From Actinomycetota bacterium (GTDB lineage Bacteria > Actinomycetota > Acidimicrobiia > Acidimicrobiales > Ilumatobacteraceae), in contig SXPW01000115.1 of the NCBI GenBank assembly GCA_005793785.1, forward strand, positions 1 through 39,018: a DNA stretch of 39,018 bases. The letters are read 5' to 3'. Position numbers and translations under genes: made by a program. This document shows positions 1,835 to 8,387 of the stretch, in pieces. The notes under the pieces were generated by a model. The model searched no databases, was not told the DNA's origin, and saw only the letters and a list, made by a program, of their open reading frames with translations. Each line of letters begins with the position of its first letter. Within the stretch, counting starts at the first letter, position 1.

Positions 1835-2998
1835 TCACCCGGACGTGAGCAACCGCGTGATGGGACCACCAACTTGCGCGAGGTCGATCAGGAAGGCATC
1901 GTGTCCGTGCGGGGAGTCGATCTCCGCGTAGTCGGCCTCCACCCCGTTGCGAGCGACGAGGTCGCGAATCTGGCGCTGCTGATACGTCGGATACAGGATG
2001 TCGCTCGAGATTCCCATTGCCAGGGTTCGCGCGGAGATACGGGCCATGGCCTTCTCGAGACCACCACGACCGCGCGAAACATCGTGCAGGTCCATGGCCT
2101 TACCGATGAGCAGATAACTGTTGGTGTCGAAGCGTCGGATCAAGCGGTCGCCATGGTGGTCGAGGTAGCGCTCCACCTCGAACTTGTCCCACAGTCCGAT
2201 GCCGTTGTTTTCCGCGTCCATGTCCGCAAGGTCGCGACCGAACCTGTCGGTGAAGACGTTGTCGCTTCGGAACGTCACTTGTGCGACCATTCGCGCGATC
2301 GCCAAGCCCTCCCATGGACCTTCTCCCGTGCTCGCGTCGTAGTAGTCGCCGCCCCGCCAGCGGGGGTCCAACCGGATGGCGCGACGACCGATGGCTCCCC
2401 AGGCAATCTGTTGTGCGGTGGACTGTGCGCACGTGCCAATCACCGCCAACGAGCCCACACGATCCGGATAGGTGATCGCCCACTCGAGCGCCTGCATCCC
2501 GCCCATCGATCCGCCCATCACGTTGTGCCATCGCCGCACACCGAGGTGGTCCGCGAGTCGCACCTGTGCGCGAACCATGTCGCGAACCGTAATCACCGGA
2601 AAGCGCGAGCCGTACGGCACGCCATCGTCGGGATGCGGTGACGCCGGACCTGTGGTGCCCTGACAACCACCGAGCACGTTGCTACAAACGACGAACCACT
2701 CGTTGGTGTCGATGGCGAGACCTGGTCCGACCAAACCCTCCCACCACCCGGGAGTTGGATGGCCGTCCTCGGCTGCACCGGCGACATGACTGTCACCCGT
2801 CCACGCATGGCAAACGAGTACGGCATTGGAGCCGTCGGCGTTGAGTTGACCCCATGTTTCGTATGCGATCGTCACGTCACGAAGCGTGACGCCCACGTCG
2901 AGCGCGACGGCTCGTTCACCCAACGACAGGAACCGTCGACGCCCCACCGGCTGTGCAGCCGACCACGCGCCCGTGGCGGGGTAATCGGTGCGTTGCAT
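1835..2998 (-). CDS. metX: homoserine O-acetyltransferase
   Basis: 387 aa alpha/beta hydrolase; LVCHAWTGDSHVAG, GGSMGGMQALEWA and C-terminal SPHGHDAFLID motifs. Confidence 0.95.
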   Translation of the reverse strand: MQRTDYPATGAWSAAQPVGRRRFLSLGERAVALDVGVTLRDVTIAYETWGQLNADGSNAVLVCHAWTGDSHVAGAAEDGHPTPGWWEGLVGPGLAIDTNEWFVVCSNVLGGCQGTTGPASPHPDDGVPYGSRFPVITVRDMVRAQVRLADHLGVRRWHNVMGGSMGGMQALEWAITYPDRVGSLAVIGTCAQSTAQQIAWGAIGRRAIRLDPRWRGGDYYDASTGEGPWEGLAIARMVAQVTFRSDNVFTDRFGRDLADMDAENNGIGLWDKFEVERYLDHHGDRLIRRFDTNSYLLIGKAMDLHDVSRGRGGLEKAMARISARTLAMGISSDILYPTYQQRQIRDLVARNGVEADYAEIDSPHGHDAFLIDLAQVGGPITRLLTSG

Positions 2999-3068
2999 GG
3001 TGTGTTCCCTCTTCGTTCCGCCACCACGCTGGGTTTTGCCACCAAACGATCCGTTGTCCCTTGCGGGA

Positions 3069-3140
3069 CCACATCGCCACCGAAGTGACTTGGCACCGTG
3101 GATTCCCGGTTGCCGGACCGTTTGGTCGCTCGTGATGTAG
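3069..3140 (-). promoter_or_regulatory. candidate SAM-clan (SAM-I/IV-like) riboswitch aptamer upstream of metX
   Basis: Minus strand CTACATCACGAGCGACCAAACGGTCCGGCAACCGGGAATCCACGGTGCCAAGTCACTTCGGTGGCGATGTGG. P1 CTACATC/GATGTGG, P2 GACC/GGTC, P3 ACCG/CGGT, P4 GTCAC-TTCG-GTGGC, with GGCAACC and GGTGCCAA core motifs. Confidence 0.8.
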
Positions 3141-3168
3141 CGGTACAGAGGCTAGCGGTAGCGTTTGA

Positions 3169-3537
3169 CTACCCGACGGGCGGAGTTGGGGCTGCACACG
3201 TTCGTCGTGCCGCCACTCGGCGATACACCACGGCGGCAATCTGGCGGATGACCGGCAATGCAATAAGCCAGCCGGCGACCGACCAGGGTGCACGCGCATG
3301 ACGCAGGGCGCTCGCAACAGCAACGTGTGCCGAGGAAACGACACCCTCTGCACTCACCCATTGCACGGCGGCCTCACAATCCGCGCGACTCAGTCCGAGC
3401 GCGGGGAGATCGGCGCTCTGGAACGCGACGGCAGTCAGCGGCCGACTCGTTCGTCGTTGGAGAAAGCGGACGCACGACCGACAGAAATCGCACTCACCGT
3501 CGAACACGAGTACCGCACTCGTTAGCGTTGCAGCCAC
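3169..3537 (-). CDS. DCC-family (DUF393) thiol-disulfide oxidoreductase-like protein
   Basis: VLVFDGECDFCRSCVRFLQRR motif (DxxCxxC). Start taken as GTG at 3537; the track ORF extends to 3588. Confidence 0.8.
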   Translation of the reverse strand: MAATLTSAVLVFDGECDFCRSCVRFLQRRTSRPLTAVAFQSADLPALGLSRADCEAAVQWVSAEGVVSSAHVAVASALRHARAPWSVAGWLIALPVIRQIAAVVYRRVAARRTCAAPTPPVG

Positions 3538-3538
3538 C

Positions 3539-4276
3539 GTGGCTCGCGTGTTGCTGTCAGTCAAGATGATCGCGCTCCATGTCTTCACGATGGTATTGGT
3601 CGTGGTGATGGTAAACCTCGGATTGTGGCAACTCTCTCGTCACAACGACCGTGCCATGTTCAACGAGGCCGTACGGGCTCGCGCGGACCAGGCACCACGC
3701 CCTGCGGACGAGATCCTGGCGCTCGACCCTGATGTCGCCGATCTCGAGTGGTACCCGCTGTCGGCCACCGGCGAATACGTCCCCAACGAGGACCTGCTCG
3801 TGGTGAACGTATCGCAGGACGGCCAGGCCGGTGTCGACCCGGTCGCTGCGATGCGTCTCGACGATGGCTCGATCCTCCTCGTCAACCGTGGGTTCATTCC
3901 CCTGGCTGCCCAGGTTCCGGAGCCACCGGCGGGTCGTGTCACCATCGTCGGTCGAGTGCGGGTGAGCAACGCACGCAAGCGTGGCGCATTGACCGACGCA
4001 CCGACCGGTGACTTGCGCGAAATCCAGCGCATCGACATCCCCCGTCTCGCGGAGCAATTACCGGGTGACGTCCTTCCCATCTACGTCGACCTTCTCGGGA
4101 GCAACCCGCCGGATTCCCCGGTACTCTCGCGCATCGCCGACCCACAACTCACGCTCGGACCGCACTTGTCCTACGTCGTGCAGTGGTTCGTCTTCTCCCT
4201 GTGTGCCATCGCTGCATGGGTGTTCATCGTGCGACGAGCGCTCGCCACATCGCGCCAGGCGACGACATCAGCCTGA
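3539..4276 (+). CDS. SURF1-family cytochrome oxidase assembly protein
   Basis: 245 aa; two terminal TM helices, NLGLWQLSRH, LLVNRGFIP and HLSYVVQWFVFSL motifs. Confidence 0.9.
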   Translation: MARVLLSVKMIALHVFTMVLVVVMVNLGLWQLSRHNDRAMFNEAVRARADQAPRPADEILALDPDVADLEWYPLSATGEYVPNEDLLVVNVSQDGQAGVDPVAAMRLDDGSILLVNRGFIPLAAQVPEPPAGRVTIVGRVRVSNARKRGALTDAPTGDLREIQRIDIPRLAEQLPGDVLPIYVDLLGSNPPDSPVLSRIADPQLTLGPHLSYVVQWFVFSLCAIAAWVFIVRRALATSRQATTSA

Positions 4277-5423
4277 GTCGCGTCGCTGCGCTCACCCGCC
4301 CGAAGACGCCGAGCATCGTGGCCCGAACGTCGCGCGGGTCGGCATCGACACGGAGGTAGGCGGCCCACCGGGAGGTCGGCAGCGAGAAGAAGGCGTCGAA
4401 AAAGTCGGGAAGCGACTCGGCGGGGAGCGACTGCAACACTGCCAGACCCATGTCGTACCACGCCCGCGTACGAATCTGCGCCTGCGGCCACACGGCGTCC
4501 CACACGGCACCACTCACGTCGCCACCCGAACGTCGACGCACGAGAGCGACTCGGATCGCCTCCGCGACACGCGGAGCCGCGCGCAATGACGCCGCCACCG
4601 AGTACCCCGTCACGGGGTGTACGTACCCCGCCGACGCCCCGAAACCAACGACACGCGTCGTTCGCGCCGGCAATGGCGCTCCCATGGGGATGCGCACGTG
4701 CTCGACGGCTCGCGCCGAGGATGTGAGGTCCACCTCCATACGACGAACCAATCGTTCACGCAGCGGTTCGATCGGCACCGGTGGCCGCGCGTACAACGAG
4801 GTCTCCTCGATCAGCGTCGATCCGTCGGGGAACGATGCTCCATAGAAGAACGTCGGCGGTCGACTCCAATCCATCAACGTGAATTCCCCGGGTCGGATGC
4901 CGGTCGAGGACGCGAGTGCCGAGTCGACGACGAGACCGTAGGCGGTTTGCGCACCGCCCGCGCGATCGTCGCTCCGTCGGGCTGATGGTTCGGGTCGATG
5001 TGCGAGCAGGACCCCGCTACCGGTCGCGTCGACCACCAAACGTGCGACCACCTTGGCACCGCCGTGCAGGCGCACGGTGCTCGTGTCGAGGTCGTGCTGC
5101 ACATCGATGACGGAATCGTCGATCGTTGCAACGCCCTCGAACAGTGCGGAACGTGTTCGCTGGTTGTCGAACACCATGTACGGACGTTGGAGCAGGTGCT
5201 CGCGCTCGGCGACCACGCGAACGACGTTCCACCTGCCGCGTTGGAGCGATGCCAACGGTGCACCCGTCTCGCATTCGACGACGTCGTCCTCCCATGCACC
5301 GTAGGTGGCGAGCCACGGCGTCGACGGCGAGACCACGAGCACGTCGACGCCGCGCGTGCGGAGCGATCGCGCGAGCGCCGCCCCGGCGGGACCTCCGCCG
5401 ACCACCACGACGTCGTGCCGCAC
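4224..5423 (-). CDS. lycopene cyclase (plant/cyanobacterial CrtL-type)
   Basis: Rossmann VVVGGGPAGAALA; FTLMDWSRPPTFFYGASFPDGSTLIEETSLYARPP; GFGASAGYVHPVTGYSVAASL; RAWYDMGLAVLQSL...FFDAFFSL. Confidence 0.88.
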   Translation of the reverse strand: MRHDVVVVGGGPAGAALARSLRTRGVDVLVVSPSTPWLATYGAWEDDVVECETGAPLASLQRGRWNVVRVVAEREHLLQRPYMVFDNQRTRSALFEGVATIDDSVIDVQHDLDTSTVRLHGGAKVVARLVVDATGSGVLLAHRPEPSARRSDDRAGGAQTAYGLVVDSALASSTGIRPGEFTLMDWSRPPTFFYGASFPDGSTLIEETSLYARPPVPIEPLRERLVRRMEVDLTSSARAVEHVRIPMGAPLPARTTRVVGFGASAGYVHPVTGYSVAASLRAAPRVAEAIRVALVRRRSGGDVSGAVWDAVWPQAQIRTRAWYDMGLAVLQSLPAESLPDFFDAFFSLPTSRWAAYLRVDADPRDVRATMLGVFGRVSAATRLRLMSSPGAMWRALVAR

Positions 5424-5426
5424 CGA

Positions 5427-6062
5427 TTACTCCACGTTGGCGAGATGGGCGTGATCGTTGTACCGCAGCAGACGCCAGATGTTCTCCCGCGGGCGGTACA
5501 ACTCGGTCAACGAACAATTCTTGGTGAACACCTCGAACCGCCCGCTCGAGGGCGCCTGCAAACAGTGCCGCAGGAGTGCGTCGATGGTGCCGCCGTGGCA
5601 GGTGACGACCACCGACTTGCCGCGGTAATCACGTTCGAGCTCACCGAACGCCGCGACGACACGCTCATGGAACTGCCCGAGCGTCTCACCGCCGGGGAAC
5701 ACCACGGTGTCGGGATCGCCATTGAAATCCGGTCGCCCGTACTTTGCCACGAAGTCGTCGTACTGCAGACCGTCACACAACGGTCCCGGATCGTGTTCGC
5801 CGAAACCAGGACGGATGTCGAGATCGTGGTGACCGATCATCGGGCCGAAAATCTCGGCGGTTTGTCTCGCGCGCGGATACGAACTCGACACCACGACGTC
5901 GACGCTCAGTTCCCCGGTCCTCTTCAACCGTTCACCGAGGGCCTCGGCCTGGGCGCGACCGAGATCGGTGAGACCACGACAACTTCGCAGGCCTCCGATG
6001 AATCGCTCGACGGTGGCGAAGGATTCGCCGTGGCGCACGAGCACCACGCGGGTGTCGGTCAT
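5427..6062 (-). CDS. histidine phosphatase (phosphoglycerate mutase-like) family protein
   Basis: VVLVRHGESFATVERFIGG...LTDLGRAQAEALG...VVSSSYPRARQTAEI...VVTCHGG. Start MTDTR at 6062. Confidence 0.9.
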   Translation of the reverse strand: MTDTRVVLVRHGESFATVERFIGGLRSCRGLTDLGRAQAEALGERLKRTGELSVDVVVSSSYPRARQTAEIFGPMIGHHDLDIRPGFGEHDPGPLCDGLQYDDFVAKYGRPDFNGDPDTVVFPGGETLGQFHERVVAAFGELERDYRGKSVVVTCHGGTIDALLRHCLQAPSSGRFEVFTKNCSLTELYRPRENIWRLLRYNDHAHLANVE

Positions 6063-7510
6063 ACGAGTTTTTCGACGAATCCCTCGAGCTGGCGCAGGTT
6101 CCTGCACTCATAGACGCCATCGGTGTTTCCGCCGTACTCGCCGACGATGGAGTCCCCCGTGTTCCAATACGACCGTGGCTCGGGATTGAGCCAGTACACG
6201 TGTCGAGCATGCTTGCGCATTTCCTTCACCACCCAACTCTGTGATGCGTGGTAGTTGTTGCGCGCGTCCCCGAGGAGGAGCACCGTGGTTTTCGGATTGA
6301 TGTCCTTGCCGTAGCGCTCCCAGAACACCTCGAAGGCATGTCCGTAGTCGCTGTGTCCGTCCACCCACACCACGTCTGCCTCCGTGTTCACCTTGTGGAT
6401 CGCCTCCTGGATGTCCTCCGTGGCACGGAAGTGTTTGGTGACCTCGTCGATGCCGTCGATGAAGACGAACGACCGTACCTTGCTGAACTGACTTTGAATG
6501 GCGTACACCAACATGAGCGTGAAACGCGCGAATGCTGCAACGCTCCCGGAGATGTCGGCGACGACCATCAATTCCGGTTTGGCGGGTCGCGGATACTTGA
6601 ACTTCGGCTCCGCGGGCACTCCGCCGTAGCTCAACGAATGTCGGACGGTGTTGCGGAAGTCGAGCGGACCCTTCCGACCATGACGTCGCTTGCGTGCCAG
6701 TCGGGCGGCGAGTTTGCGAGTCAGTGGGAACAACGCCTTCTTGAGCGACTGCATCTCCTCCCTGCTGGCGTGCATGAACTCCACGTCCTCGGGTAGGGGT
6801 TTGCGGAGCGTCTTTGCCATCGCCTCGGCACCACGATCGGCGACGAGCCGGCGTCGAATCTCTGCTTCGACTTCCTTCTTGAATTGCTCGATCCGCATCT
6901 CGTACTCGTCCTTGGCCAGACGTTGCTCCAGGCTGGTCGACTCCCTCTGTGTCGACGCCTTGTTCGCCTCGAGCAACTTCGCGAGCATGTTGTCCAAATC
7001 CAGGTTGCGCAGCGTCCGGTACAGGTAGTACGTACCGCCGACGGGTCGCCCAGGCTCCATCCCGGCGAAACGTGCCACCGACTGCCGTGCCAACGCGCGC
7101 ATCATCGCCTGATCGCCCTGCATGAGCGCGCGCATGAGCATGTTGGCAAGTTCCTCCGGAGTGAGTGCCTCGAGCCCGCCCCCGCCGGCCCCCTTGCCCT
7201 CACCCTTGCCGAGCTGTGCGTCGTCCTGCTCGTCGCGCCAGAACTCGTCGGCTTGGTCCTCGCTCGGGTCGACGATGTTGTATTGCGATCCCCGTAACGA
7301 GAAGTACACCTCGAAGATGGTCTCGAACACCCTCCAGTGCGACGAGTTCTTGACGAGCGTTGCACCGAGGGCGTACTTGAACGCTTCGCGATCCTCGATC
7401 GGGATGACCTTCACGGCCTCCATCGCATCGAGATTCTCCGTCAGGCTCACCGGCAGTCCGGCGCGGCGCAGTTCGACCACGAATCCAGACATCAGGTCGA
7501 TGACCGGCAT
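6059..7510 (-). CDS. VWA domain-containing (CoxE-like) protein
   Basis: PELMVVADISGSVAAFARFTLMLVYAIQ (MIDAS-like) and DGHSDYGHAFEVFWERYGKDI. Start MPVIDLMSGF at 7510; adjacent to a MoxR ATPase gene. Confidence 0.85.
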   Translation of the reverse strand: MPVIDLMSGFVVELRRAGLPVSLTENLDAMEAVKVIPIEDREAFKYALGATLVKNSSHWRVFETIFEVYFSLRGSQYNIVDPSEDQADEFWRDEQDDAQLGKGEGKGAGGGGLEALTPEELANMLMRALMQGDQAMMRALARQSVARFAGMEPGRPVGGTYYLYRTLRNLDLDNMLAKLLEANKASTQRESTSLEQRLAKDEYEMRIEQFKKEVEAEIRRRLVADRGAEAMAKTLRKPLPEDVEFMHASREEMQSLKKALFPLTRKLAARLARKRRHGRKGPLDFRNTVRHSLSYGGVPAEPKFKYPRPAKPELMVVADISGSVAAFARFTLMLVYAIQSQFSKVRSFVFIDGIDEVTKHFRATEDIQEAIHKVNTEADVVWVDGHSDYGHAFEVFWERYGKDINPKTTVLLLGDARNNYHASQSWVVKEMRKHARHVYWLNPEPRSYWNTGDSIVGEYGGNTDGVYECRNLRQLEGFVEKLV

Positions 7511-7517
7511 GCGACCC

Positions 7518-8387
7518 CTATTCGTCGACCGACAGCTCTTTGGCGGCCTTTGCAATGTCGGTTTGGTACTTGAGGAGCACGTGCAGCGTTTCCTTGGCTT
7601 GCTGTGCATCGATGTGGTCCACACCGAGCAGGATCAGCGTGCGCGCCCAGTCGAGCGTCTCGCTCACCGACGGCGCCTTCTTCAGATCCAACTGGCGGAT
7701 GCTACGTACGATCCGCGCACTCTGGTCGGCGAGGTTCGCACTGATGTCGGGAACCTTGGCGAGCACGATCTCCTTCTCGCGCTCCATGTCCGGATAGTCG
7801 ACGTGGAGATAGAGGCAGCGGCGCTTCAGTGCCTCGGAGAGTTCGCGGGTGTTGTTGGACGTGAGGAACACCATCGGGATCTGCTTTGCGGTGATGGTGC
7901 CGAGCTCGGGAATCGAGACCTGGTACTCACTCAGCACCTCGAGCAACAGGGCTTCGGTTTCGACTTCGACGCGGTCGACTTCGTCGATGAGGAGGACCAC
8001 CGGGTCGGGCGCCGAGATTGCTTCGAGCAGTGGTCGAGTGAGGAGGAACTCGTCGCTGAAGATGTCGTCGTGCACCTCCGACCAGGAGTCGCTCTTCTTG
8101 TCGGCTTGAATGCGGAGCAACTGTTTCTTGTAGTTCCATTCGTAGAGCGCCTTGGACTCATCCAGACCCTCGTAGCACTGGAGACGAATCAGTCGAGCGC
8201 CGGTAAGTTCGGCGACGCTCTTGGCCAACTGGGTCTTGCCCGTACCGGCCGGACCTTCGATGAGTACCGGCTTGCCGAGGCGTTGCGCCAGGTACACGAC
8301 TCCGGCGATGCCGTCGTCCGCGAGATAGTTGATTTTCTTGAGGCCATCACGCACCTGCGCAACGGTGGTGAATGCACTGCTCATCAT
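7518..8387 (-). CDS. MoxR-family AAA+ ATPase
   Basis: 289 aa; Walker A GPAGTGKTQLAKS, Walker B VVLLIDEVDRVE, sensor VFLTSNNTRELSEALKRRCLY. Confidence 0.93.
   Translation of the reverse strand: MMSSAFTTVAQVRDGLKKINYLADDGIAGVVYLAQRLGKPVLIEGPAGTGKTQLAKSVAELTGARLIRLQCYEGLDESKALYEWNYKKQLLRIQADKKSDSWSEVHDDIFSDEFLLTRPLLEAISAPDPVVLLIDEVDRVEVETEALLLEVLSEYQVSIPELGTITAKQIPMVFLTSNNTRELSEALKRRCLYLHVDYPDMEREKEIVLAKVPDISANLADQSARIVRSIRQLDLKKAPSVSETLDWARTLILLGVDHIDAQQAKETLHVLLKYQTDIAKAAKELSVDE

Follow-up and report, generated by a model that had tools for sequence, protein, structure and literature searches.

The leader of metX in the window, i.e. the whole stretch of 39,018 nucleotides analysed here, raises the question of what kind of RNA precedes this gene and how it might act on it. 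A first-pass annotation had placed a SAM-clan riboswitch there, as a minimal variant with a possible switch between its P5 and P3 regions. In an Rfam scan of the whole window, the metX leader is the sole match at curated cut-offs, namely to RF01725 (SAM-I-IV; 3143-3040, minus strand). The score is 51.5 bits against a gathering cut-off of 41.1 (E = 9.8e-6 for the whole window, both strands), and the match covers model positions 1-99, the full length. The leader also folds far better than its dinucleotide shuffles (z −3.9, 0/200).

The metX leader RNA is a member of the known SAM-I/IV riboswitch family, RF01725, and since it is an ordinary member it does not represent a new type of sensor. The clan assignment of the annotation is thereby upheld and narrowed, and its placement of the element upstream of metX is right as well. 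Of the other SAM-clan models, RF00634 has no match anywhere in the genome, and the search with RF00162 did not return the metX leader site. The idea of a minimal variant, on the other hand, has to be abandoned, as the compact P2, the P4 and the GNRA hairpin are standard features of SAM-I/IV RNAs (PMC2864571, PMC6890682, PMC5393176). The functional sequence reaches to at least 3038, while the element had earlier been taken to stop at 3056. The features are collected in Table 1.

Table 1. Features of the metX leader and of the surrounding genes in the window.
Feature	Position	Strand	Remarks
SAM-I/IV aptamer core, P1 to P5	3056..3139	-	RF01725; pairs 97% kept in 12 leaders
P1, UACAUC/GAUGUG	3139-3134/3075-3070	-	six pairs, one U-G wobble
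P2 hairpin, GACC-AAAC-GGUC	3127-3116	-	stem invariant in 12 genus leaders
P3	3114-3107/3098-3092	-	SAM-pocket motifs GGCAACC and GGUGCC
P4 hairpin, GUCAC-UUCG-GUGGC	3089-3076	-	five pairs, 100% kept
P5 hairpin, GUCCC-GCAA-GGGAC	3069-3056	-	five pairs; directly 3' of P1
Candidate PK-2 5' strand, AUCC	3100..3103	-	in P3 loop; pairs with GGAU
Candidate PK-2 3' strand, GGAU	3049..3052	-	pairs with AUCC
Anti-P2 helix, 5' strand, GCGACCAAACGGUCCG	3129-3114	-	P2 with its loop
Anti-P2 helix, 3' strand, CGGAUCGUUUGGUGGC	3053-3038	-	candidate switching segment just 3' of aptamer
TAGCCT, possible -10 promoter element (inferred)	3149..3154	-	TAG[C/T]CT in 12/12 genus leaders, same place
CGUGGUG, candidate sequestor of metX start codon (CACCAUG)	about 3026-3020	-	p 0.10 vs shuffles
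metX, homoserine O-acetyltransferase	1835..2998	-	387 aa; NF001209 480 bits, cut-off 331
DCC1-like thiol-disulfide oxidoreductase	3172-3588, end at 3169	-	directly upstream of metX leader
SURF1	3539-4273	+	
Lycopene cyclase	4227-5423	-	
Histidine phosphatase	5430-6107	-	
CoxE-like VWA protein	6062-7624	-	

Occurrence in the genome and its relatives

The assembly is fragmented (1.48 Mb, 81% complete) and holds the RF01725 element in a single copy. Among 121 related genomes, 68 have a match at E ≤ 0.001, 55 of them above the cut-off, and within the window's genus the element is found in 11 of the 13 genomes. Where the start of the downstream frame can be placed, most of these frames begin like MetX. 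One genome of the sample (G008) has two riboswitch metX leaders, L011 and L035, which lie on separate contigs, are 104 nt each and are nearly identical; this may be a duplication or an effect of assembly or contamination. The neighbour genes of the metX riboswitch are ordinary.

The genome of the window contains a second SAM-clan candidate outside the window (L073:1501-1586; contig C154:5938-6023 of assembly G000). It is 86 nt long, scores 41.2 bits with the SAM-I model RF00162, just under the cut-off of 44.4, and ends a few bases upstream of the ATG of a 159-aa ORF that has no Pfam match. Candidates of this type, of the same length and never above the RF00162 cut-off, occur in 8 of the 13 genomes of the genus, and their P3 core reads ACCAACC/GGUGGU in place of GGCAACC/GGUGCC.

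The aptamer compared with known SAM riboswitches

Helices P2, P3 and P4 were found on the minus strand as the annotation had described them. P1 had been given as seven base pairs; the helix and its wobble are present, but with six pairs, as the seventh, a C-G, would take G3069, the first base of P5. P2 is a single helix of 4 bp closed by a loop of 4 nt and has neither an internal loop nor a kink-turn; J3/4 of the metX leader has just two bases, which makes it too short for pairing with L2 (PK-1). This agrees with the earlier expectation that the P2 kink-turn and the P2-loop pseudoknot are absent. The GNRA hairpin noted right after P1 is P5, in which two relatives carry a compensatory change from U-A to C-G that keeps the hairpin.

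Over the 12 leaders of the genus, 97% of the P1-P5 structure is paired, compared to 28-41% when the pairing is slid. In these leaders P5 changes in a compensatory manner, the P2 stem is invariant and the variation of P4 is one-sided (U-G/U-A and C-G/U-G). The P3 loop segment of 10 nt (other genera: 11-17) is the shortest in the sample, and so is the Rfam match length of 104 nt, which is common to all 12 genus leaders. A P2 span as short as that of the window was found in 22 parsed relatives, these 12 included.

In SAM-I, the residues within 5 Å of SAM are 6-8, 11-12, 44-47, 57-59 and 87 (PMC6890682). Mapped by motif, the counterparts in the window are A, U, C; G, A; C, A, A, C; U, G, C; and A, respectively; all those checked are identical to SAM-I and invariant in the genus. 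For residues 57-59 and 87, the counterparts are those that we take to correspond by motif. At the positions checked, the SAM pocket of the metX leader is intact, and SAM binding is predicted.

SAM-I/IV RNAs have a P2 without internal loop (PMC2864571) and are distinguished from SAM-IV by the unsplit P2, the missing PK-1 and the presence of P4 (PMC6890682). The reference for our comparison is the crystallised 96-nt SAM-I/IV RNA 4L81, to whose sequence (PMC5393176) we assigned the helices P2 (GGGG-GAGA-CCCC), P4 (CACCG-GAGA-CGGUG) and P5 (GGCCC-GAGA-GGGC); by the same assignment, its 3' end GUCCGU is complementary to its P3 loop, ACGGAC. The metX leader shares with the SAM-I/IV family (RF01725, 4L81) P1, an undivided P2 (4 bp, 4-nt loop), P4, P5 after P1, a P3 with GGCAACC and GGUGC, the SAM-pocket residues and a downstream methionine gene. 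The candidate PK-2 differs: in the metX leader it has 3-4 bp and lies 3 nt after P5, while the values for 4L81 are about 6 bp and 6 nt. The metX leader further differs from 4L81 in its 10-nt P3 loop segment and in the 16-nt segment past P5 that is complementary to P2; at such strength this complementarity is found only in the window's genus. SAM-IV (RF00634) has the core pocket, P5 and the position of the candidate PK-2 in common with the metX leader, but its P2 is divided into P2a and P2b with PK-1, and it lacks P4 (PMC6890682), whereas the metX leader has a single P2 and a P4. With SAM-I (RF00162) the leader shares the core pocket and P4, but neither the kink-turn nor the P2-loop pseudoknot.

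Two candidate pairings downstream of P5

The RNA that follows P5 can engage in two pairings, PK-2 with the P3 loop and a longer helix with P2. PK-2 is evident in most other genera, where its strands differ yet complement each other (for example GGAAGC/GCUUCC, GAACGC/GCGUUC and GGACAC/GUGUCC). Taking one leader per genus, the mean is −11.8, compared to −9.3 ± 0.5 for permuted strands, and none of 2000 permutations is as good. Inside the window's genus the UCC/GGA pairs are invariant, without any variation, and the fourth pair (A-U) is present in 4 of 11 distinct leaders. Neighbouring small-genome genera have CCC/GGG at this place, pointing to the same short pseudoknot after a change in one pair.

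We now turn to the helix with P2. The segments CGGAUCGUUUGGUGGC and GCGACCAAACGGUCCG are complementary at 15 of 16 positions, including one G-U, with one G-G mismatch. All 12 genus leaders preserve this register, with at least six pairs (GGUCCG/CGGAYC) running into the P2 loop, and 79% of the anti-P2 cells are paired in the genus, compared to 16-41% when slid. The per-leader p values against shuffled segments are 0.000-0.044 (0.000-0.090 with a slightly different setting), and within the genus own partners pair better than swapped ones (permutation 0.0012). The covariation is modest, with a score of 0.120 compared to 0.073 for shuffles, none of 500 of which reaches it; the two-sided changes are at columns 22/99, 23/98 and 24/97, i.e. 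in the P2 loop, whose bases have no partner in the aptamer. It is important to note that the 12 leaders are closely related and that their gene tree is poorly resolved, so that the compensatory changes may represent only one or two events. Because of these few independent events and the state of the tree, the covariation is suggestive but not a proof.

According to folding calculations, the predicted ensembles are aptamer-like at lengths of 75-90 nt and mostly in the anti-P2 form at 98-108 nt in 12/12 leaders; in the latter state P1 and P2 are lost, while P3 and P5 are largely kept. The window leader, when lengthened so as to reach into the gene, has a minimum of −72.7 kcal/mol if folded freely, compared to −61.7 with the aptamer forced, in an energy model that includes neither SAM nor PK-2, both of which would act in the opposite direction, i.e. 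against the anti-P2 helix. At full length, three of the 12 leaders (L015, L016 and L033) do not favour this helix.

The reading that we favour, and consider fairly probable, is that the metX 5' leader contains a SAM-I/IV riboswitch by which MetX production is reduced when SAM is plentiful, and in which the segment after P5 displaces P2 when SAM is absent. Another explanation, which we judge unlikely though clearly the most serious competitor, is that the switch works through PK-2 and nearby RNA only, like other members of the family, with the anti-P2 complementarity being incidental or a by-product of the conserved GGUCCG and the PK-2 strand GGA. It would account for the clear PK-2 of most other genera with its compensatory changes, for the invariant UCC/GGA in this genus, and for the near-invariance of the six-pair anti-P2 core, which therefore offers little covariation. 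However, GGA(U) would suffice for PK-2, and still the conservation extends to the flanking C91 and C96, which match P2, as does the longer GGUGGC kept in most leaders. The advantage of own over swapped anti-P2 partners also speaks against this explanation, and PK-2 is here just 3-4 bp long.

Very improbable in our estimation is a SAM-clan RNA that has diverged and either lost its response to SAM or come to recognise a related compound, for example SAH. The weak PK-2 would be in line with it, and so would the P3 loop segment, the shortest of all those sampled, but the checked pocket positions match SAM-I without exception and do not vary in the genus, the score lies 10 bits above the RF01725 cut-off, and metX is located downstream. 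The switch of the first-pass annotation, in which UCCC of P5 would pair with GGGA of the P3 region in one state, is scarcely credible, as these four bases could pair in the window but compete with the five-pair GNRA hairpin, show no covariation, are mismatched in L033 (GGGA to GGAA), and face a P5 that the compensatory U-A to C-G change preserves and whose predicted probability is 0.85-1.0 at 90 to 160 nt of the window leader. The alternative pairing with better support is that between P2 and the segment downstream of P5.

An anti-P2 helix common to the whole family was also considered and rejected (permutation 0.32 over 30 genera). Pairing of the J1/2-P2 5' counterpart gives a permutation value of 0.022 (30 genera); it is strong in certain genera only, such as g7, g8, g13, g21 and g27. 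Leaders L012, L018, L028, L034, L037 and L056, from other genera, have a CCGCUCG-like strand 12-15 nt after P5 that is complementary to J1/2 and the P2 5' strand (CGAGCGG), and in L012 matching changes are seen in this pairing (UUGAGCGGU/AUCGCUCAA). Other genera of the family may use different invading strands, such as CCGCUCG against the CGAGCGG of J1/2-P2.

Level of control and proposed mechanism

The hexamer TAGCCT had been put forward as a promoter element. It is present, within a block conserved in the genus (CCGCTAG[C/T]CT), but a promoter scan gave no sigma-70-type hit. No terminator-like site was found in the metX leader; control by transcription termination was rejected on this ground, and translation is for the same reason the likelier level.

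In the free fold of the window leader, CGUGGUG pairs with the leader's 5' end. The predicted probability of the metX AUG being unpaired is 0.15 with the aptamer forced, compared to 0.81 in the free fold, which fits an OFF switch in the window leader. A consistent occlusion of the start site in the bound state was rejected, as the direction of the accessibility change differs between the 12 leaders. In a comparison of 21 genera, the RNA past P5 is a better complement to the start region of its own leader than to those of other genera (permutation fraction 0.0013), with striking pairs in L003 (GAACUCC/GGAGUUC), L041 (GUCCUCCU/AGGAGGAC) and L007 (CUGUCCCU/AGGGACAG). The element is probably a SAM-responsive OFF switch at metX acting at the translational level; the repressive direction is assumed by analogy with the SAM riboswitches known to precede methionine genes.

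In the proposed mechanism, the aptamer would fold first during transcription of the leader. Binding of SAM would hold P1 and P2 in place and let the P3 loop pair with GGA(U) as PK-2, and RNA close to the start codon would remain available for blocking translation. When SAM is lacking, P2 would be displaced by the segment that follows P5 while P3, P4 and P5 stay, whereby P1 and the binding site would be destroyed and the start region freed. The anti-P2 segment is possibly a new, genus-specific expression platform. More tentatively, and with considerable doubt on our part, PK-2 could be vestigial in this genus and the riboswitch could have moved to strand displacement, with the RNA 3' of P5 invading P2 rather than P1.

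Family membership alone makes this one more metX leader in a well-known class. Should the anti-P2 switch prove real, it would provide a natural and compact expression platform for SAM-I/IV, with a switching segment of ~16 nt, and would mean that the platform varies between genera while the aptamer core remains fixed.
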